10,428 nt of DNA. It comes from an uncultured Lachnospiraceae bacterium (GTDB lineage: Bacteria > Bacillota_A > Clostridia > Lachnospirales > Lachnospiraceae). The notes under the pieces were generated by a model. That model searched no databases, was not told where the DNA came from, and saw only the letters and a program-made list of their open reading frames with translations. Shown here piece by piece: positions 2,161-10,428 of the stretch. Position numbers and translations under genes: made by a program. Location: positions 1 to 10,428 of the forward strand of contig CADBNA010000198.1 in assembly GCA_902795835.1 (NCBI GenBank), written 5' to 3'. How positions within the stretch are numbered: position 1 is the first letter of the stretch; each line of letters starts with the position of its first letter.

Positions 2161-3480
2161 ATGTTTGAACTTGAACAGTCGCTGGAACTGCACCAGACAC
2201 TGTCACCGCAGCAGATTCAGTCTCTTCAGATCCTGGCCTATACCAATCAGGAACTGGAAGAATTTCTGAAGAATGAGTATTTTGAGAATCCGCTGCTGGA
2301 AAACACGATCGATAAACAGGGAGAGATGCTCCAGAATCTGGAAACCCTCTATGAGAATGATGAGGGCTACCGGCGGGAATATATTGCAGATGATGACGAT
2401 GAGCCCCAGAGAGAGATCCGGGCCCGGGAAAAGATTTCCATCCGGCAGATTGTTCTGGAACAGCTGGCGCATCGTGACCTGACCCGACGGGAATGGGATA
2501 TCATAGAGTCTCTGGTTCAGTTTGTGAATGACCAGGGATTCCTCGACTACGAGCCGACGGATATCGCCATCGACATGGGCTTTGCCCGGGATGAAGTCCT
2601 GCACTGCCTGGATATCCTGAAAGAACTGGAGCCGGCAGGCCTGTTTGCGTCAGGCATTGAAGAGTGTCTGATCATACAGCTGCAGAGGCAGGGAACAGAA
2701 GACGAGACGCTTTTCCGGCTGATCCGGGACCATATGCAGGAAATACTGGCCGGACGGTTCAGCAATGCATCCCGCAGCCTGGGCATATCCACGAGCCAGG
2801 TCAAGAAATATCTGCGCGTCATCAGCCGGCTGCAGCCTTATCCCATTCTGGAGAGAGAAGCCGGGGACGTTGAATACATCGTTCCGGATATCATTATCAA
2901 AAAGGAACGGGGCGGCGACTGGGAGGTGGAACTCAACGACGGCTGGATGGGAGAATACCGCTGCAATGAATATTATGTCCGGATGATGAGGACGACAAAG
3001 GATCCGGAACTGAAGGAGTATTTTGAGGAAAAACTGCGCCGGGCGGTATTTATCATGAATTGTGTGGAGAAACGGCGGGAGACTCTGGTCAACATCTGCA
3101 GGGCGATTCTTCACCTGCAGGAAGATCATTTTCTGAACGGGGCGCCGATCACTCCCATGCTGATGCGTGAGGTTGCGGAAGAGGCCGGAATCAACGGGTC
3201 AACGGTCAGCCGCGCTGTCCAGGGAAAATATATCATGTTCAGGAAAACAGAACTCCTGCGTGACTTTTTCAGCGGAAAGGCCATAGAGGGAAGCGACGTC
3301 TCCGGGCGGGAGATCCGGAATATCCTGGCTGATATGATCCGGCAGGAAGATAGGGAAAACCCGTTAAGCGACATGCAGATTGTCGAGGAAATGGAAAAAC
3401 AGGGCATATCTATCTCACGGCGCACGGTTAATAAGTATAGAAAACAGATGGGAATACCGGATTCCAGACACAGGATCTGA
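2161..3480 (+). CDS. rpoN: RNA polymerase sigma-54 factor (RpoN)
   Basis: This 439-residue protein has the standard length and domain order of sigma-54. Region I is Gln/Leu-rich (SLELHQTLSPQQIQSLQILA, ending ENPLLE near residue 45) and is the part that contacts activators and the -12 promoter element. An acidic linker (residues ~65-80) leads into the core-binding domain. A helix-turn-helix lies at about 331-357 (VAEEAGINGSTVSRAVQGKY). The RpoN box, which reads the -24 element, is SRRTVNKYRK at 419-428 (family consensus close to ARRTVAKYRE). The protein directs RNA polymerase to -24/-12 promoters and needs an AAA+ enhancer-binding protein to open DNA. The ribosome binding site is AAAGGGAGA (about 2145-2153). 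It starts 42 bp after the zinc-ribbon gene, may be read from upstream, and ends before a strong terminator. A sigma-54 promoter lies just downstream at 3673-3688. Confidence 0.97.
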   Translation: MFELEQSLELHQTLSPQQIQSLQILAYTNQELEEFLKNEYFENPLLENTIDKQGEMLQNLETLYENDEGYRREYIADDDDEPQREIRAREKISIRQIVLEQLAHRDLTRREWDIIESLVQFVNDQGFLDYEPTDIAIDMGFARDEVLHCLDILKELEPAGLFASGIEECLIIQLQRQGTEDETLFRLIRDHMQEILAGRFSNASRSLGISTSQVKKYLRVISRLQPYPILEREAGDVEYIVPDIIIKKERGGDWEVELNDGWMGEYRCNEYYVRMMRTTKDPELKEYFEEKLRRAVFIMNCVEKRRETLVNICRAILHLQEDHFLNGAPITPMLMREVAEEAGINGSTVSRAVQGKYIMFRKTELLRDFFSGKAIEGSDVSGREIRNILADMIRQEDRENPLSDMQIVEEMEKQGISISRRTVNKYRKQMGIPDSRHRI

Positions 3481-3496: not shown

Positions 3497-3549
3497 ACGC
3501 CGGATCCGGTCACCCTTTTTTGGATGTGCGGGATCCGGCGTCTTTTTTT
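3497..3549 (+). terminator. Rho-independent terminator after rpoN
   Basis: A perfect 11-bp inverted repeat, ACGCCGGATCC (3497-3507) and GGATCCGGCGT (3531-3541), is followed by C and seven Ts (3543-3549). It begins 16 bp after the rpoN stop. The loop is long (23 nt), but the GC-rich stem and T tract are typical of an intrinsic terminator. It should separate rpoN from the fermentation genes. Confidence 0.88.
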
Positions 3550-3560
3550 GTAGTGCAGAA

Positions 3561-3589
3561 TTGCATCACGTCCGGAGATAGTGTACAAT
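3561..3589 (+). promoter_or_regulatory. Possible sigma-70/sigma-A promoter between rpoN and the dehydrogenase gene
   Basis: TTGCAT (3561-3566) and TACAAT (3584-3589) are separated by 17 bp, a good vegetative promoter match, with an overlapping TATAAT at 3589-3594. Transcription would start near 3596, giving a leader of about 150 nt before the dehydrogenase gene. That leader contains the GC-rich hairpin region at 3600-3648. It sits just after the rpoN terminator, where a new transcription unit would be expected to begin. The match is from inspection only. Confidence 0.45.
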
Positions 3590-3599
3590 ATAATCAGTT

Positions 3600-3648
3600 G
3601 TCCGGCCCCGGGGCAGCCGGGCTTCACTGCTCCGGAGGGACGTTTTTT
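3600..3648 (+). other. GC-rich inverted repeats followed by T6: attenuator/terminator-like structure or activator-binding region
   Basis: The segment is dense in CCGG half-sites: TCCGG at 3601, CCGG at 3617 and TCCGGA at 3631, with another TCCGGA at 3571. A hairpin CCCGG (3607-3611)/CCGGG (3617-3621) can nest inside GTCC (3600-3603)/GGAC (3638-3641), and six Ts follow at 3643-3648. This could attenuate a transcript from the promoter at 3561-3589. It also lies about 60-100 bp upstream of the start expected from the sigma-54 promoter, a distance suited to an enhancer-binding-protein site. The sequence does not decide between these roles. Confidence 0.4.
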
Positions 3649-3672
3649 CAACACCCTGGCACCTGCTGCAAG

Positions 3673-3688
3673 TGGCACGCGAAATGCT
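3673..3688 (+). promoter_or_regulatory. Sigma-54 (-24/-12) promoter for the 3-hydroxyacyl-CoA dehydrogenase/crotonase operon
   Basis: TGGCACG (3673-3679), four bases, then ATGCT (3684-3688) matches the sigma-54 consensus TGGCACG-N4-TTGCW at all but one position. The invariant GG (3674-3675) and GC (3686-3687) are in exact register. Transcription would start near 3699, about 50 nt before the ATG at 3750, leaving room for the AAAGGA ribosome binding site at 3737-3742. It is intergenic, on the coding strand, and directly after rpoN and its terminator. The site implies dependence on an enhancer-binding activator, which is not encoded in the window. Confidence 0.78.
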
Positions 3689-3749
3689 CACCAGATAATC
3701 GGAAGATTATTGGACTTCTGTCAGCTGCATGTTAAGAAAGGATGAAGGT

Positions 3750-4691
3750 ATGAGTGAACGTATAGCGGTATATGGAGCCGGTACAATCGGATCCTGTGAG
3801 ATCACGCTGATTACAGGCAACAGCTTTCCTGTTACGGTTATCGGATTTGATGACGCGGACCTGGAGCGCTGCAGAGGCAAACTGGAGACAAACTGGAACG
3901 ATCTGATTGAACTGGGTCTTGCGACCCAGGAGAATAAAGAAGCCGCCATGAAACTGGTGACGCTTACGGCAGATCCGGAAGCACTGCGGGACTGCACGTT
4001 TGTATTCGAAGAGGTTCTTGAGGATATCAAGATCAAATCTTCTGTTTTTAAGGTTATCGAAGAGCATACCGGACCGGATACCATCATTGCGTCAAGCACC
4101 TCTTCCATTGACGCGGAAGATCTGGCCGCAACCGTAAAAAGACCGGAGCGGCTGATCGTTGCGCATCCGTTCCAGCCGGTACATCTGCAGCCGCTGGTAG
4201 AGCTGGTCTGCAATGCGAAGACGTCGGATGATACCATTTCCCGCGCAAAAGACATACTCGCCCAGCTGCAGCGCGTTGTTGTCTGCATGAAGAAGAGCGT
4301 GCCGGGCTTCCTGGTCAACCGCTTTGCGCAGACATTGTTCCGTGAGTCAATCTACCTGATTGAGCAGGGCGTTACGACGGCCGAAGATATCGACATCGCG
4401 GTGAAGTATGCTGTCGGCATGCGGTATGCGGAAATCGGTCTTCTTGAATACTTTGACGCTGTCGGCTTTGAGCTGGAGAGCGCCATCGCGAAGAACTGTT
4501 ATCCGGATCTGTGCGATACCAAGGAACTGCAGGAGACCGTGCTGGAAGGCCTCAGGACCGGAAAGACCGGAATGGCAGCCGGACAGGGCCTCTTTGACTG
4601 GTCGAACCGGAGCTATGACGACTACCGCCGCCGTCTGAACGCTCCGTATCTGGATGGTGTTAAAAAATGGCACTTGCCGAAAGGAGAATAA
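3750..4691 (+). CDS. 3-hydroxyacyl-CoA dehydrogenase family protein (Hbd-like, with carnitine-dehydrogenase-like features)
   Basis: A 313-residue NAD(P)-dependent dehydrogenase that should oxidise a 3-hydroxyacyl-CoA (probably 3-hydroxybutyryl-CoA) to the 3-keto form, or run in reverse. The Rossmann motif GAGTIG is at residues 9-14. IASSTSSI (113-120) supplies the Ser/Thr region near the substrate. His139 and Glu151 (AHPFQPVHLQPLVELV) have the 12-residue spacing of the catalytic His-Glu pair. PGFLVNR (185-191) opens the C-terminal domain. I chose ATG 3750, not the in-frame ATG at 3729, because AAAGGA at 3737-3742 is well placed for it and the protein then begins right before the first beta strand. 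It differs from classical Hbd: SCEI replaces the usual Gly-containing segment after the glycine motif, and HPFQP replaces HFFNP, which recalls carnitine dehydrogenase and lambda-crystallin relatives. The substrate is therefore inferred mainly from context. The crotonase gene follows after 4 bp. Confidence 0.85.
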   Translation: MSERIAVYGAGTIGSCEITLITGNSFPVTVIGFDDADLERCRGKLETNWNDLIELGLATQENKEAAMKLVTLTADPEALRDCTFVFEEVLEDIKIKSSVFKVIEEHTGPDTIIASSTSSIDAEDLAATVKRPERLIVAHPFQPVHLQPLVELVCNAKTSDDTISRAKDILAQLQRVVVCMKKSVPGFLVNRFAQTLFRESIYLIEQGVTTAEDIDIAVKYAVGMRYAEIGLLEYFDAVGFELESAIAKNCYPDLCDTKELQETVLEGLRTGKTGMAAGQGLFDWSNRSYDDYRRRLNAPYLDGVKKWHLPKGE

Positions 4692-4695
4692 AAGC

Positions 4696-5469
4696 ATGAG
4701 TTACGTGAAATTTGAGAAACAGGGTGAGATCGGAATTGCCACGATTGACCGGCAGGAAGCGCTGAATGCGCTGAACGCTGATGTCATCGGCGAGCTGGAA
4801 GATCTGGTGACAGAGCTGGAGAAGGATACGGAGATCCGTGCGCTGATCCTTACCGGTGCCGGCCGTTCTTTCGTGGCGGGCGCGGATATCAAGCTGCAGC
4901 AGCCGCTGGACGTTGACGGCGGACGCCGCTGGGGCCAGAGAGGATCAAAGGTTTTCCGCCGCCTGGAGAAGCTGGAATTCCCGACGATCGCTGCAGTCAA
5001 CGGCTTTGCGCTTGGCGGCGGCTGTGAGCTGGCTATGAGCTGTGACATCATTCTTGCCTCCGAGAAGGCAAAATTCGGCCAGCCTGAAGTCGGCCTGGGC
5101 ATTACACCCGGATTTTCCGGCACCCAGAGACTGCCCCGCCGCGTAGGCATTGCAAAGGCAAAGGAGCTGATTTACTCCGGCAAGATGATCAAAGCCGACG
5201 AGGCAAAGGCAATCGGCCTGGTCAACGAGGTCTATGCACCGGAAGAACTGATGGACAAAGCCATTGAGATGGCAAAATCCTTTACAAAGAATGCGCCGAT
5301 CGCCGTCAAGTATTCCAAGGCTCTGATCGACCGCGGCATGCAGATGGATATTGATGACGGCATCATGCTTGAGCAGGAGATGTTTGCCATGTGCTTTGCC
5401 ACACAGGACCAGAAGGAAGGCATGAGCGCTTTCATTGAGAAGAGAGCGGCAGAGTTCAAGAATAAATAA
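4696..5469 (+). CDS. crt: Enoyl-CoA hydratase (crotonase family, 3-hydroxybutyryl-CoA dehydratase)
   Basis: A 257-residue cytoplasmic crotonase that should reversibly hydrate crotonyl-CoA to 3-hydroxybutyryl-CoA. The ATG at 4696 has AAAGGAG at 4680-4686 nine bases upstream; the in-frame ATG at 4654 lies inside the preceding gene and is unlikely. The oxyanion-hole regions are visible (GAGRSFVAGADIK; NGFALGGGCELAMSCD). Both hydratase glutamates are present, Glu111 in GGGCELAM and Glu131 in FGQPEVGLG, 20 residues apart as in mammalian crotonase (Glu144/Glu164). This supports a true hydratase rather than a family member with other chemistry. PGFSGTQRLPRRVG is also typical. It starts 4 bp after the dehydrogenase stop, so the two form a tight pair supplying the oxidative branch from crotonyl-CoA. 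The length is normal. Confidence 0.93.
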   Translation: MSYVKFEKQGEIGIATIDRQEALNALNADVIGELEDLVTELEKDTEIRALILTGAGRSFVAGADIKLQQPLDVDGGRRWGQRGSKVFRRLEKLEFPTIAAVNGFALGGGCELAMSCDIILASEKAKFGQPEVGLGITPGFSGTQRLPRRVGIAKAKELIYSGKMIKADEAKAIGLVNEVYAPEELMDKAIEMAKSFTKNAPIAVKYSKALIDRGMQMDIDDGIMLEQEMFAMCFATQDQKEGMSAFIEKRAAEFKNK

Positions 5470-5518: not shown

Positions 5519-5557
5519 TGTCAAACAGTTGACAGTTCTTGCATTTAACGGTAAGAT
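5519..5557 (+). promoter_or_regulatory. Sigma-A promoter with inverted-repeat operator over the -35 box, upstream of the CoA transferase
   Basis: A perfect TTGACA -35 box (5529-5534) is followed after 17 bp by TAAGAT (5552-5557), a fair -10 box; GATAAT at 5555-5560 is an alternative with a longer spacer. Transcription would start near 5564. The -35 box is the right half of a perfect inverted repeat, TGTCAA (5519-5524), ACAG, TTGACA (5529-5534). Together with the direct repeats just upstream, this suggests that a regulator acts here. The 140-bp gap after the crotonase gene also argues for a separate promoter. Confidence 0.55.
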
Positions 5558-5609: not shown

Positions 5610-7166
5610 ATGAAAAAGGTTAAGGTACTGCAGGCAGAAGAGGCAGCTCTGCTGGTTCAGGACGGCGACACGATTGCCACAGGCGGTTTCGTAAGCTGTG
5701 CCTGCCCGGAAGCGCTTTCAAAAGCTCTGGAACAGCGTTTTCTGGAGACAGGTCATCCGAAGGACCTGACACTGTTTTTTGCAGCAGGCCAGGGACACAG
5801 AGACGGCACAGGCGGTGATCACTACGGACATGAAGGCATGGTGAAGCGCGTTATCGGCGGTCACTGGGACCGCGCGCCGAAGCTTGGCGAACTGGCACTG
5901 CAGAACAAGATCGAAGCATACAATCTGCCCCAGGGCGTAATTTCCCACATGTACAGGGATATTGCCGCCCACAATATCGGTACCATTACAACCGTGGGCC
6001 TTTATACATTTGCAGACCCCCGTATTGAAGGCGGAAAGCTGAACGAGCGGACGACCGAGGATATGGTAAAGGTTGTTGAGATCGAAGGCGAAGAGATGCT
6101 CCTTTACAAGGGCTTCCCGATCAATGTGGTGTTCCTTCGCGGCAGCTATGCCGATGAATACGGCAACTGCACCGTGCACCGTGAGATCGGACCGCTGGAT
6201 GTTACCGCCATGGCACAGGCCTGCCGCAATTCCGGCGGAAAGGTAATTGTGCAGGTAGAAAAGATCGTGCAGGGCGGTTCTCTGGATCCGAAGCTGGTTG
6301 CCATTCCCGGCATCTATGTAGATGCAGTCGTAGTCGGCACACCGCAGGAGAACGAACAGTGCCTGGGCATGGAGTATGACGGCAGCCTGACCGGCGAATT
6401 CCGGATTCCGGTGGACGCAATCCCCCCGATCCCGATGGATGCCAAAAAGATCATTGCCCGCCGCGCGGCAATGGAGCTGCCGAAGGACGCCATCGTCAAT
6501 CTGGGCACCGGCGCGCCGGAGAAAATCGCCAATGTTGCTGCCGAGGAAGGAATTTCCGACTACATGACGCTGACGGTAGAAGCCGGGTCCATTGCCGGCG
6601 TGCCGATGGGCGGGACGCAGTTCGGAGCCGCCGCAAATGCCATGGCTATTATTCCTCACAATGTACAGTTTGACTTCTATCAGGGCGGCGGACTGGATGT
6701 CGCATTCCTGGGTCTGGCGGAGACGGCTCCGAACGGCGATCTGAATGTCTCGAAGTTTGGCGTGCGCCTGGCCGGCGCCGGCGGATTCATAGACATCACC
6801 CAGAACGCGAAGAAGGTTGTCTACTGCGGCACCTTCACGGCCAAGGGGCTGAAGACCGAGTGCCGGGACGGCAAGCTGGTCATCACACAGGAGGGCGCCA
6901 AGAAGAAATTCGTTCAGCAGGTTGAGCAGGTCACCTTCTCCGGAAAATACGCGAACAAGGTTCACCAGCCGGTTCTGTATATCACGGAGCGCGCCGTATT
7001 TGAGCTTCGTCCGGAAGGCGTTACCCTGATCGAAATCGCCCCCGGCATCGACCTGCAGACACAGGTTCTGGATCAGATGGAGTTTAAGCCGCAGATTGCC
7101 GAGGATCTGAAAGTCATGGATGAACGGATCTTCCGTGAGGAACTGATGGGCCTGAAGGAAGGCTGA
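5610..7166 (+). CDS. pct: Propionate CoA-transferase-type family I CoA transferase (fused alpha/beta)
   Basis: This 518-residue enzyme moves CoA from an acyl-CoA donor such as acetyl-CoA or butyryl-CoA to a free carboxylic acid through a glutamyl-CoA thioester. The alpha and beta halves are fused in one chain, as in propionate CoA-transferase (Pct). The N-terminal half has DGDTIATGGF and the later FLRGSYADEYGN. The second half carries the catalytic motif VEAGSIAGVPMGG, in which the nucleophile is Glu324, the same number I recall for the Clostridium propionicum enzyme. AAANAMAIIPHNVQFDFYQGGG and GAGGFIDITQNAKKVVYCGTF follow. The ribosome binding site GGAGGTG (5597-5603) fixes the start. Beside AbfD its substrate is probably 4-hydroxybutyrate, with acetyl- or butyryl-CoA as donor. 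Pct relatives also accept propionate, lactate and acrylate, so specificity cannot be read from the sequence. An inverted-repeat element follows the stop. Confidence 0.92.
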   Translation: MKKVKVLQAEEAALLVQDGDTIATGGFVSCACPEALSKALEQRFLETGHPKDLTLFFAAGQGHRDGTGGDHYGHEGMVKRVIGGHWDRAPKLGELALQNKIEAYNLPQGVISHMYRDIAAHNIGTITTVGLYTFADPRIEGGKLNERTTEDMVKVVEIEGEEMLLYKGFPINVVFLRGSYADEYGNCTVHREIGPLDVTAMAQACRNSGGKVIVQVEKIVQGGSLDPKLVAIPGIYVDAVVVGTPQENEQCLGMEYDGSLTGEFRIPVDAIPPIPMDAKKIIARRAAMELPKDAIVNLGTGAPEKIANVAAEEGISDYMTLTVEAGSIAGVPMGGTQFGAAANAMAIIPHNVQFDFYQGGGLDVAFLGLAETAPNGDLNVSKFGVRLAGAGGFIDITQNAKKVVYCGTFTAKGLKTECRDGKLVITQEGAKKKFVQQVEQVTFSGKYANKVHQPVLYITERAVFELRPEGVTLIEIAPGIDLQTQVLDQMEFKPQIAEDLKVMDERIFREELMGLKEG

Positions 7167-7176
7167 CTGCGGCCTT

Positions 7177-7265
7177 TGACAGGGGACGGTTCTCTGTCAC
7201 CTGATCTGAAATTTCAGATTATCTCAGAAGGATGAAAAAAGGTGACAGAGAGCCGTCCCCTGTCA
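7177..7265 (+). repeat. 89-bp inverted-repeat element (MITE/REP-like) with nested palindromic core
   Basis: The left arm at 7177-7202 (begins TGACAGGGGACGG) and the right arm at 7240-7265 (ends CCGTCCCCTGTCA) are 26-bp inverted repeats with a single mismatch, T7190 against G7252, which still pairs as G-U in RNA. Each arm is itself a small hairpin (TGACAG...CTGTCA). Between them lies a perfect 16-bp palindrome, ATCTGAAATTTCAGAT (7204-7219). The element starts 10 bp after the CoA-transferase stop and ends just before the AbfD ribosome binding site, so it is transcribed with the operon. I recall very similar GGGGACGGTTCTCTGTC sequences between genes of many clostridia and other bacteria, which suggests a dispersed non-coding repeat mobilised in trans. 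No transposase is present here. Confidence 0.8.
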
Positions 7266-7284: not shown

Positions 7285-8757
7285 ATGATTCGTACTGCAG
7301 AACAGTATATCGAGAGCCTTAGGACGCTGAAGACCCGCGTATATATGTTTGGCGAGAAGATTGACAACTGGGTGGATCACCCGATCATCCGTCCGTCGAT
7401 CAATTGTGTTGCCGCAACATATGAGCTGGCCAATGATCCCATGTATGAGGACCTCATGACGGCCACATCCAGCCTCACGGGAAAGAAGATCAACCGTTTC
7501 ACGCATCTGCACCAGTCTACGGATGATCTGATCAAAAAAGTGAAAATGCAGCGCCTGCTGGGCCAGAAGACAGCCAGCTGCTTCCAGCGCTGTGTCGGCA
7601 TGGATGCATTCAATTCCGTATTTTCGACAACGTATGAAATCGACGAGGCCTGCGGCACACATTATCATGAGAACTTTAAAAAGTTCCTGACCTTTATCCA
7701 GGATGAAGACCTGGTTGTCGACGGCGCCATGACGGATCCGAAAGGTGACCGTTCCAAAGCACCTCATGCACAGGCAGACCCGGATATGTTTGTACACGTT
7801 GTTGAGCGGCGTGAAGACGGCATCGTCGTCTGCGGCGCAAAGTGTCACCAGACCGGTTCCATTAATTCCCACTGGCACATTTTCATGCCGACGATCTCCA
7901 TGGGAGAGGCCGACAAAGACTGGGCTGTCAGCTTTGCCTGCCCGACTGATGCAGAAGGCCTGTACATGATCTACGGACGTCAGTCCTGCGATACCCGCAA
8001 GCTGGAAAATGCTCCGATTGATCTCGGCAACGAGAAGTATGGCGGACAGGAAGCCCTGGTTGTCCTGGATCACGTATTCATTCCGAACGAGTATATCTTC
8101 ATGAATGGCGAGTATCAGTTTGCCGGCATGATGGTTGAGCGTTTTGCAGGGTATCACAGACAGAGCTACGGCGGCTGCAAGGTCGGTGTCGGCGATGTGG
8201 TGATCGGAGCTACTGCTCTTGCCGCTGAGTACAACGGCGCTGACAAGGCTTCCGCCGTCAAGGACAAACTGATCGAGATGACGCACCTGAATGAGACGCT
8301 CTATTGCTGCGGCATCGCCTGCTCTTCCCAGGGCGCTCCCACAAAAGCCGGAAACTATCAGATCGACCTGCTCCTGGCCAATGTCTGCAAGCAGAACGTC
8401 ACACGGTTCCCGTACGAGATCGTGCGTCTGGCCGAAGATATTGCCGGCGGCCTGATGGTCACCATGCCTGCCCAGAAGGATTTCGAATCCGATACCGTTG
8501 TCGGAAGAAACGGTGAGACGATCGGCGAGATCTGCAACAAATTCTTCAAGACAAAGGAGAATGTCCCCACAGAATACCGCCAGAGAATTCTTCGTTTCCT
8601 GGAGAACATGTGTCTCGGCGCCGCGGCCGTCGGATACAGGACGGAGTCTATGCATGGCGCAGGTTCCCCGCAGGCACAGCGTATCATGATCGCGCGTCAG
8701 GGCAACCTGGAGCACAAAAAGGAACTGGCAAAAGCAATTGCCGGCATTCCGGAATAA
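7285..8757 (+). CDS. abfD: 4-hydroxybutyryl-CoA dehydratase / vinylacetyl-CoA delta-isomerase (AbfD)
   Basis: A 490-residue FAD and [4Fe-4S] enzyme that dehydrates 4-hydroxybutyryl-CoA to crotonyl-CoA by a ketyl-radical mechanism and isomerises vinylacetyl-CoA. The cluster ligands known from the Clostridium aminobutyricum enzyme (Cys99, Cys103, His292, Cys299) are all present: Cys99 and Cys103 in SCFQRCVGMDAF, and His291 and Cys298 in ERFAGYHRQSYGGCK, shifted by one residue. Tyr295, Glu256 (GGQEALVVLDHV) and Glu454 (TESMHGAGSP) match the other active-site positions I recall, Tyr296, Glu257 and Glu455. The length equals the family's. A flavin-dependent 4-hydroxyphenylacetate hydroxylase would lack the Cys/His set, so this is the dehydratase. 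The ribosome binding site is AAAGGAG (7273-7279). It probably acts between the CoA transferase upstream and Bcd/Etf downstream. The iron-sulfur centre is oxygen-sensitive, fitting an anaerobe. Confidence 0.96.
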   Translation: MIRTAEQYIESLRTLKTRVYMFGEKIDNWVDHPIIRPSINCVAATYELANDPMYEDLMTATSSLTGKKINRFTHLHQSTDDLIKKVKMQRLLGQKTASCFQRCVGMDAFNSVFSTTYEIDEACGTHYHENFKKFLTFIQDEDLVVDGAMTDPKGDRSKAPHAQADPDMFVHVVERREDGIVVCGAKCHQTGSINSHWHIFMPTISMGEADKDWAVSFACPTDAEGLYMIYGRQSCDTRKLENAPIDLGNEKYGGQEALVVLDHVFIPNEYIFMNGEYQFAGMMVERFAGYHRQSYGGCKVGVGDVVIGATALAAEYNGADKASAVKDKLIEMTHLNETLYCCGIACSSQGAPTKAGNYQIDLLLANVCKQNVTRFPYEIVRLAEDIAGGLMVTMPAQKDFESDTVVGRNGETIGEICNKFFKTKENVPTEYRQRILRFLENMCLGAAAVGYRTESMHGAGSPQAQRIMIARQGNLEHKKELAKAIAGIPE

Positions 8758-8790: not shown

Positions 8791-9927
8791 ATGGATTTTG
8801 AATTATCCAGAGAACAGAAGCTGATTCAGAAGATGATCCGCGAGTTCACAGAGAATGAGATCGCGCCGATCACAGCAGAGACTGACAGAACCAGCACGTA
8901 CCCGGCCGAGACCATCGACAAGCTGTTCGACTGCGGCGTCATGGGCATGGCCGTACCGAAAGAGTATGGCGGAGCAGGTGCTGACCTGCTGTCTGCTGCC
9001 ATCTGCGTAGAGGAGATTTCCAAGGCCTGTGCATCCACCGGTGATATCGTGGCGACCCACAATGGACTTTGCTGCGCGCCGATTCTGGAGAATGGCACAG
9101 AAGAGCAGAAGAAGAAATACCTTCCCATGCTGACGCAGGGCCATAAGGTAGGTGCTTTTGCCCTGACCGAGTCCAACGCCGGTTCCGATGCTTCCAAGGG
9201 CACCACGACCGCCCGTCTGGAAGGCGACAAGTATATCCTGAACGGATCAAAGATCTTCATTACCAACGGTTATGTGGCAGAGATCTTCGTAGTATTTGCC
9301 ATGACGGATCCGTCCAAGGGCACAAAGGGCATTTCCGCCTTCATCGTAGAGAAGGATTTCCCGGGCTTCTCCGTAGGAAAGCATGAGGAAAAGCTGGGCC
9401 TGCACGGCTCACCGACAGCTGAGATTGTGTTCACTGACTGCGAGGTTCCGAAAGAGAACCTGCTCGGCCAGGAGGGCAAGGGATTCCGTATCGCCATGGC
9501 CACCCTGGACGGCGGCCGTATCGGCATTGCCGCACAGGCACTCGGCATCGCGGAAGGCGCCATGCAGGAAGCGATCAACTTCACAAAGACCAGAGAGCAG
9601 TTTGGCCGCCCGATCGCAAAGTTCCAGAATACCCAGTTCGAAATTGCAGATATGCATGTCGGCATTGAGGCCGGCCGTCTGCTGTGCTACAAGGCTGCAT
9701 CGATCAAGAATACCGGTGCCAGGGTGACGCTTGACGCGGCTACCGCAAAGCTGTTCTGCTCCGAGCTGGCTATGAAGGTTACCACAAAGGCTGTACAGCT
9801 CCACGGCGGCTACGGCTATACAAAGGACTATCCGGTTGAGCGCATGATGCGCGATGCCAAGATCACGGAGATCTACGAAGGCACCTCCGAGATTCAGAGA
9901 GTTGTTATTTCGGGAAATATACTTTAA
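8791..9927 (+). CDS. bcd: Butyryl-CoA dehydrogenase (short-chain acyl-CoA dehydrogenase)
   Basis: A 378-residue FAD enzyme that reduces crotonyl-CoA to butyryl-CoA with electrons from the electron-transfer flavoprotein. Family signatures are intact: AFALTESNAGSDAS (122-135) for flavin and substrate binding, QLHGGYGY (336-343), and the catalytic base Glu363 in IYEGTSEIQR. The length is typical of clostridial Bcd. The start follows a strong AGGAGG site (8779-8784) behind a short AT-rich spacer of 33 bp after AbfD. The etfB start lies 12 bp after its stop, the usual clostridial arrangement for the complex that can couple crotonyl-CoA reduction by NADH to ferredoxin reduction. Whether this one bifurcates cannot be told from the dehydrogenase alone. 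Other acyl-CoA dehydrogenases share these motifs; the C4 assignment rests on context and overall similarity. Confidence 0.94.
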   Translation: MDFELSREQKLIQKMIREFTENEIAPITAETDRTSTYPAETIDKLFDCGVMGMAVPKEYGGAGADLLSAAICVEEISKACASTGDIVATHNGLCCAPILENGTEEQKKKYLPMLTQGHKVGAFALTESNAGSDASKGTTTARLEGDKYILNGSKIFITNGYVAEIFVVFAMTDPSKGTKGISAFIVEKDFPGFSVGKHEEKLGLHGSPTAEIVFTDCEVPKENLLGQEGKGFRIAMATLDGGRIGIAAQALGIAEGAMQEAINFTKTREQFGRPIAKFQNTQFEIADMHVGIEAGRLLCYKAASIKNTGARVTLDAATAKLFCSELAMKVTTKAVQLHGGYGYTKDYPVERMMRDAKITEIYEGTSEIQRVVISGNIL

Positions 9928-9939
9928 AAGGAGATCGTC

Positions 9940-10428
9940 ATGAAAGCAATTGTATGTGTAAAACAGGTGCCGGACACATCAGGAAAAGTAGCTGTCAATG
10001 AGAATGGTACCCTGAACCGTGCATCCATGCAGACCATTACCAATCCGGATGACCTGAACGCTGTTGAGGCGGCGCTGCAGCTGAAGGATGAGACAGGCTG
10101 CGAAGTAGTTGTAGTCACCATGGGACCGCCGCAGGCGGAAATCATGCTGCGCGAGCTGCTGGCCCGCGGCGCAGACCGCGCCGTTCTGGTATCCGGCAGA
10201 GAGTTCGGCGGATCCGACACCTACGCGACATCCCAGATCCTGGCAGCGGCCATCAGCCGCATCGGCCTGGAGAAGGATGACATCGTATTCTGCGGCAGAC
10301 AGGCCATTGATGGTGATACCGCCCAGGTCGGCCCGCAGATCGCCGAGAAGCTGAACATCCCGCAGGTTACATACGCAGGCGCCCTGCAGAAGGACGGCGA
10401 CGCTCTGATCTGCCGCCGGATGCTTGAG
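9940..10428 (+). CDS. etfB: Electron transfer flavoprotein beta subunit (EtfB), 3' end outside window
   Basis: The first 163 residues of EtfB (full length usually about 260) are visible, starting at ATG 9940 after AAAAGGAG (9926-9933), which overlaps the bcd stop codon. MKAIVCVKQVPDT is the family's classic N-terminus. NPDDLNAVEAALQLKD and the nucleotide-binding segment CGRQAIDGDTAQVGPQIAE (118-136) follow. EtfB pairs with EtfA, expected just downstream, to pass electrons to Bcd. The frame is open to the last base with no disruption. Confidence 0.96.
   Translation, partial: MKAIVCVKQVPDTSGKVAVNENGTLNRASMQTITNPDDLNAVEAALQLKDETGCEVVVVTMGPPQAEIMLRELLARGADRAVLVSGREFGGSDTYATSQILAAAISRIGLEKDDIVFCGRQAIDGDTAQVGPQIAEKLNIPQVTYAGALQKDGDALICRRMLE

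Follow-up and report, generated by a model that had tools for sequence, protein, structure and literature searches.

The locus examined here raises the question of whether a sequence resembling a sigma-54 promoter, located directly behind the gene for sigma-54 itself and ahead of a group of fermentation genes, is a functional control site and, if so, by which activator it is opened and which of the genes it serves. We have analyzed the whole stretch of 10,428 nucleotides from an uncultured Lachnospiraceae bacterium (hereafter the window) together with related loci and genomes. Our results indicate that the element at 3673-3688 is very probably a real sigma-54 switch site. The features of the window are summarized in Table 1.

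Table 1. Positions and characteristics of the features identified in the window
Feature	Positions	Strand	Remarks
rpoN (sigma-54), 439 aa, AID+CBD+DBD	2161..3480	+	Profile matches; RpoN-box-like SRRTVNKYRK
Intrinsic terminator of rpoN	3497..3549	+	Perfect 11-nt stem (3497-3507/3531-3541), T run
Putative activator site (UAS) TGTAGTGC-AGAATT-GCATCACG	3549..3570	+	Shared repeat; 19/22 identical in L001
Weak sigma-A-like element TTGCAT-N17-TACAAT	3561..3589	+	Overlaps UAS; kept in L001; not reported by scan
Sigma-54 -24/-12 promoter (predicted) TGGCACG-CGAA-ATGCT	3673..3688	+	In-register match, kept in L001
Inverted repeat ATAATC-GGAA-GATTAT	3695..3710	+	Exactly at predicted start
3-hydroxyacyl-CoA-dehydrogenase family (3HCDH), gene 1	3750..4691	+	Below 3-hydroxybutyryl-CoA dehydrogenase cut-offs
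Crotonase family	4696..5469	+	Best NCBIfam model short-chain-enoyl-CoA hydratase, 369.9 of 394 bits
Sigma-A-type element TTGACA-N17-TAAGAT	5529..5557	+	Conserved in L001
CoA-transferase family, YdiF type	5610..7166	+	449 bits to 2ahu
4-hydroxybutyryl-CoA dehydratase/vinylacetyl-CoA isomerase type	7285..8757	+	902.6 bits to 1u8v
Short-chain acyl-CoA dehydrogenase (butyryl-CoA dehydrogenase/acryloyl-CoA reductase type)	8791..9927	+	Family matches
etfB, cut by window end	9940..10428	+	Family matches

The -24/-12 element and its conservation

The window encodes a complete sigma-54 factor, which scores 331.4 bits against TIGR02395 (cut-off 277.35) and contains all three sigma-54 Pfam domains. Its terminator was missed by our terminator scan, in which the loop was limited to 8 nt (the loop here is 23 nt). 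Between this terminator and the dehydrogenase gene, the sequence TGGCACGCGAAATGCT (3673-3688) carries GG at 3674-3675 and GC at 3686-3687, in the fixed spacing TGGCAC..TGC of sigma-54 promoters. The first-pass annotation had described this in-register match, placed it about 60 bp before a start codon and regarded it as a sigma-54 promoter adjoining rpoN and dependent on an AAA+ activator; the match and its placement are confirmed, with 61 bp separating the element from the ATG at 3750 and a predicted transcript start near 3699, and the promoter itself is supported by the retention of the site in relatives. The start of gene 1, given as 3729 in the list of open reading frames, was set at 3750 from the spacing of the ribosome-site region upstream of this ATG (AAGAAAGGATGAAGGT).

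When the whole window was searched for TGGCACNNNNNNTGCW with at most one mismatch, 3673-3688 was the sole match and had 0 mismatches. Shuffled windows contained a mean of 1.68 matches at this tolerance, with at least one match in 158 of 200, and a match at this tolerance is therefore not significant by itself; the weight of the element comes from its exactness, its place and its conservation. One point against a promoter is that the -12 box reads ATGCT, not TTGCT. In the 2.0 Mb genome of the closest relative (G001), the exact pattern was found 12 times compared to 6 times for a reversed control, which puts the background at about 0.03 per 10 kb.

A search of a genome collection with the 3HCDH protein returned 27 loci. 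One of these, a 95% relative of the window (L001; contig CAMODP010000001.1 of genome G001, labelled uncultured Eubacterium), shares the order of all eight genes that were compared, and the seven from rpoN to etfB are 94-99% identical. Upstream of rpoN, positions 580-2118 encode a zinc-ribbon protein with a low-complexity tail rich in Lys, Pro, Ala and Gln, which is 69% identical in L001, far less than its neighbours. Within the gap between rpoN and the 3HCDH gene, 139 of 269 positions are identical, and these are unevenly distributed: the linker 3592-3669 retains 21 of 78 (27%), compared with 16 of 19 at 3671-3689, 17 of 18 at 3553-3570, 14 of 17 at 3575-3591 and 13 of 18 in the ribosome-site stretch 3732-3749. 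The changes around the element fall at 3679-3681 and affect the final G of TGGCACG and two positions of the spacer; loss of the GG and GC positions in close relatives would have spoken against the promoter, and both are kept in the one close relative checked, L001.

The leader downstream of the predicted start resembles no known riboswitch, an Rfam scan at the gathering threshold having given no match, and its folding is barely better than that of shuffled sequences (z of -0.70 for the window and -1.60 for L001). Where the window has the repeat 3695-3710, L001 has a hairpin of other sequence. An attenuator at about 3599-3650, suggested by eye from a GC-rich stem and a T run, was rejected, as the scan was silent there and the stretch is unlike that of L001.

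Among the 26 other 3HCDH loci, a consensus-like site is found upstream of the gene in one (L026), two (L007 and L014) have a loose-pattern match only, and 23 have no match within 400 bp. L026 belongs to Butyricicoccus pullicaecorum DSM 23266 (genome G017) and is also the only one of the 26 that shows rpoN in the DNA examined. Its rpoN ends 2 bases before TGGCACGAAAAATGCT, which stands ahead of the 3HCDH gene, and the identical 16 letters recur before an aldolase operon 1.1 kb on; the pattern as a whole occurs 33 times in G017 (24 for the reversed control), TGGCACGAAAAATGCT itself at those two places only. In G010, from the genus group of L001, rpoN is followed by TGGCATGGTAATTGCT and then by glycerol-dehydrogenase-like and CoA-transferase genes. 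No matching site lies behind rpoN on the stretches examined in G008, G015 and G016, and the pattern count in G016 equals that of the reversed control (9 and 9). A site is hence present directly behind four of the seven rpoN genes (window, L001, G017/L026 and G010). The expectation that it would be conserved upstream of orthologous operons is borne out in L001 and L026 and fails at the remaining 25 3HCDH loci, where no consensus-like site is present; the site therefore goes with the rpoN cluster and not with the 3HCDH gene.

A candidate activator and its putative binding site

The window holds no activator gene, and it had been supposed that the activator lies elsewhere or is global. In the relatives, the activator is local and not global: a lone protein with PAS, AAA+ (GAFTGA) and Fis domains is encoded on the rpoN contig, and the proposed search for an AAA+ activator with a GAFTGA motif gave one in G001, G017 and G010. 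G001 has seven PF00158 matches, of which one is strong (7.2e-69) and the others are 4.9e-8 or weaker, and the strong one lies about 12.7 kb downstream of rpoN on the same contig. G017 has one strong activator among three matches, about 6 kb from rpoN. Within the genus of G001, rpoN is found in 5 of 16 genomes, and the same five each have exactly one strong activator (Fisher P 2.3e-4), gene absences being provisional as the completeness of these genomes is not given. The two genes share a contig in G001, G010 and G016 and are on different contigs in G008 and G015. There is one strong activator per rpoN-bearing relative examined, except in the group of G018; G018 has the catabolic genes and at least three strong activators, with no rpoN and no site among those genes in the stretch examined. 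A longest contig of 53,762 is recorded both for an RpoN (P0005, 54% identical) and for an activator (P0123, 69% identical to that of L001), which suggests a further lineage with rpoN and activator on one contig. By comparison with L001, the activator gene in the window's own genome would be expected about 12.7 kb downstream of rpoN.

The activators of L001, G010 and G017 have the GAFTGA motif and similar recognition helices, and the promoters share a candidate target for them, an inverted repeat with the core TGC-N6-GCA. In the window, about 105 bp separate this putative UAS from the -24 box and 140 bp separate it from the predicted start; most clostridial activator sites are placed 100-250 bp upstream in the available part of a study of Clostridiales (PMC6615313), a range into which the window copy falls. 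Two of the G010 repeats have perfect 8-nt arms (TGTGATGC-GATATT-GCATCACA and TGCGATGC-GTATAT-GCATCGCA), and elsewhere the arms are degenerate. Twelve promoters were listed and nine tested, three having been left out before the count, viz. the L001 promoter that corresponds to that of the window and comes from the same lineage, a weak L001 site ahead of thiolase, and G016 abfD, for which the activator recognition helix differs. The core is present at -150 to -40 in seven of the nine, and none of 2000 dinucleotide-shuffle sets reached seven with every inverted repeat of three letters and 0-12 spacer positions admitted, this breadth being allowed because the motif was first noticed by eye. It is missing at L001 dctP and at the rpoN-linked 3HCDH promoter of G017, where the region is mostly coding. 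RATGC-N6-GCATY alone occurs at 28 places in G010, and the repeat is therefore not specific by itself. Taken together, these sequence comparisons lend good support to the prediction of a sigma-54 promoter served by its own, locally encoded activator.

Extent of the sigma-54 target and alternative explanations

The genes surrounding these sites form a larger catabolic cluster in the relatives. In L001, rpoN is followed by a site and the genes for 3HCDH, crotonase, CoA-transferase, a 4-hydroxybutyryl-CoA dehydratase type, acyl-CoA dehydrogenase, etfB, etfA and a glycerol-dehydrogenase type; by a second site with an HpcH/HpaI aldolase, a 2-hydroxyacid dehydrogenase, a KduI/IolB type and the activator, and then a metallo-beta-lactamase fold, a URO-D type, a zinc alcohol dehydrogenase, EutH and a small protein; by a third with two small proteins; and by a fourth with TRAP dctPQM, one more small protein and a thiolase gene that runs off the contig (TRAP and thiolase were named by inspecting the sequences and not by matching them to families). 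Of the 12 exact matches in G001, four are located on this rpoN contig of 31 kb and all four point the same way (binomial P 2.6e-5; the contig was reached through one of these four sites, which is included in the count). G010 shares much of the L001 gene set, differently ordered; five pattern matches lie on its stretch, three of them intergenic and two inside genes, the latter taken as chance. A substrate resembling a sugar acid is suggested by the aldolase, the hydroxyacid dehydrogenases, the KduI/IolB-type protein and the TRAP uptake genes. In samples of 394, 392, 87 and 250 genomes, a KduI-like protein at E 1e-40 was matched only in the centre genome of each; the 392-genome sample was evidently without G010, which has a KduI-like gene, and the rarity of the island is therefore provisional. 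At 3220 (-) in L056 of G001, a sigma-54-like TGGCACGTGGTTTGCT stands ahead of thiolase-like (49%) and 3HCDH-family (28%) genes, and the regulon may thus reach beyond the island. The RpoN proteins of the window, G010 and G017 share 33-36% pairwise identity and are not one clade in a midpoint-rooted FastTree tree of 126 sequences in which some supports are low; it is for these reasons unproven that rpoN and the island were transferred together.

In the window, gene 1 falls well short of the 3-hydroxybutyryl-CoA dehydrogenase models (160.7 of 408 for NF004474 and 171 of 427 for NF006125), and no other listed NCBIfam model reaches its cut-off. Its best solved relative is a 5-formyl-3-hydroxy-2-methylpyridine-4-carboxylate 5-dehydrogenase (145.6 bits, compared to 124.9 for 3-hydroxybutyryl-CoA dehydrogenases), and its active-site stretch reads HPFQPVHLQPLVELV where a second 3HCDH-family copy in G010, which adjoins thiolase and which we take to be the true butyrate-pathway enzyme, has HFFNPAPVMKLVEVI. 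In L026, L014 and G010, the 3HCDH gene is near TRAP, aldolase and KduI-type catabolic genes. Gene 1 may act on a free acid and not on a CoA ester. The genes further downstream are of the CoA-ester type, the predicted dehydratase covering residues 1-488 of 1u8v in a full-length match.

The promoter could drive this whole CoA-ester cluster as a single operon through the ETF genes, an alternative that concerns the extent of the transcript and not whether the promoter is real. All of the genes from 3HCDH to etfB are co-directional in the window, and G010 has CoA-ester genes that are preceded by sigma-54 sites, viz. the glycerol-dehydrogenase-like and CoA-transferase genes and bcd-etfBA-crt-abfD-3HCDH. 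However, the crotonase and CoA-transferase genes of the window are separated by 140 bp containing TTGACA-N17-TAAGAT, nearly unchanged in L001, and a perfect inverted repeat, TGTCAA-ACAG-TTGACA (5519-5534), which overlaps the -35 box of that element and is itself unchanged in L001. This points to separate control of the genes from CoA-transferase to ETF, with sigma-54 read-through possible, and we consider a single operon unlikely, if still the strongest of the alternatives. Because gene 1 fails the butyrate models and the CoA-transferase-to-ETF genes follow TTGACA-N17-TAAGAT, the surest sigma-54 targets are the first two genes; where the first-pass annotation had offered either the butyrate-forming cluster or its first two genes as the target, the narrower version fits best and the whole cluster is too broad. 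The repeat at 5519-5534 is perhaps an operator of another regulator of CoA-ester genes. Between the CoA-transferase and dehydratase genes, 7177-7265 contains an inverted repeat of 26 nt with 96% complementarity (TGACAGGGGACGGTTCTCTGTCACCT...). Since this gap measures 118 nt in the window and about 40 nt in L001, the repeat has the appearance of a palindromic, MITE/REP-like element that was inserted recently.

A second alternative is that sigma-A transcribes the genes from TTGCAT-N17-TACAAT (3561-3589), the sigma-54 element being a minor or silent second promoter. The block 3575-3591 is about as conserved in L001 (14/17) as the sigma-54 site (16/19). Against this, the scan did not pick up the candidate, which has only 8 of 12 consensus letters; by eye, no such -10 box follows the repeat at the gld and bcd sites of G010; and TTGCAT is accounted for as half of the shared repeat, so that sigma-A transcription of this kind appears improbable. 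A bound activator would lie over TTGCAT-N17-TACAAT, which may be a basal sigma-A promoter, and a mixed form is possible, in which an activator over the -35 box shuts the sigma-A start and turns on the sigma-54 start. A functionless chance look-alike is the least credible alternative: 1.68 matches are expected per window at one mismatch and many genome-wide matches in the relatives are background by the reversed-control counts, but the match is exact, correctly placed and oriented, kept in L001, and accompanied by sites directly behind rpoN in two more lineages, by the shared repeat and by the activator.

A working sigma-54 promoter at 3673-3688, opened by a PAS-AAA+-Fis activator from the repeat 3549-3570, is the reading that we regard as highly likely. 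The site, its register, its conservation, the shared repeat and the single strong activator of the rpoN-bearing relatives are read from the DNA; binding, activation, transcript start, signal and the presence of the activator in the window's own genome are what we infer. RpoN, encoded just upstream, would hold RNA polymerase at 3673-3688 in a closed state; an activator of the PAS-AAA+-Fis type would bind the inverted repeat, loop onto the polymerase and, on sensing a signal via its PAS domain, spend ATP to open the promoter. The transcript from about 3699 would carry the 3HCDH-family and crotonase genes and possibly read on. If the arrangement in L001 is a guide, more sigma-54 sites would be expected in the same cluster, one ahead of an aldolase operon and others ahead of small genes and of a TRAP transporter.

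Significance and comparison with known sigma-54 systems

A broader interpretation, which we put forward tentatively and at somewhat less than even confidence, is that sigma-54 in several gut Clostridia is a private polymerase subunit of one catabolic island, with rpoN, the only activator and most of the strong promoters in a cluster of about 30 kb that is gained, lost and reshuffled; the island would comprise TRAP uptake, a lactonase fold, an aldolase, hydroxyacid dehydrogenases and a KduI-like enzyme, with butyrate genes as an electron sink in some lineages. Here, a sigma factor commonly regarded as global seems to be devoted to one pathway, in whose gene cluster it is encoded. The locus offers a testable switch for a catabolic, butyrate-linked cluster, one relative being a named and deposited butyrate producer, and with one activator, one site type and about four promoters its parts are few enough for complete testing.

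In Rhodobacter, rpoN is similarly found within nif clusters, inside the cluster that it serves; that case differs in involving nitrogen fixation, the activator NifA and Proteobacteria. For gut Clostridia, we found no report of rpoN inside its own target cluster in a search of titles and abstract openings, with subscription journals mostly outside its scope.

Sigma-54 control of butyrate genes has already been published for Clostridiales, where in vitro binding of a clostridial sigma-54 to DNA fragments that carry predicted promoters of butyrate genes is reported (PMC6615313). The regulons described there (activators CrbR, XanR, AhcR, XcgR, and YctR; Nie et al., 2019, PMC6615313) are, in the portion available, like the present one in combining sigma-54 and mostly PAS-type activators upstream of butyrate or fermentation genes, with the activator gene usually near its targets and its sites mostly 100-250 bp upstream. 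The CrbR-type sites of that portion are TGT/ACA repeats with a 10-12 bp spacer, whereas the core here is TGC-N6-GCA, and a search of the 320 bp ahead of the window site and ahead of four L001 sites gave no TGT-N8-13-ACA. The same portion makes no mention of rpoN/sigL adjoining a target operon, and its main text does not contain the word "Lachnospiraceae" (PMC6615313). A single sigma-54 activator per genome has a parallel in Lactobacillus plantarum and Chlamydia trachomatis, and the Firmicute context of rpoN given in the available part of the same source is yhbJ and central glycolytic genes with CggR, in contrast to the catabolic cluster found here (Francke et al., 2011, PMC3162934). Butyrate genes under sigma-54 being known already from Clostridiales, what is unusual in the present locus is the position of rpoN inside the cluster that it serves.
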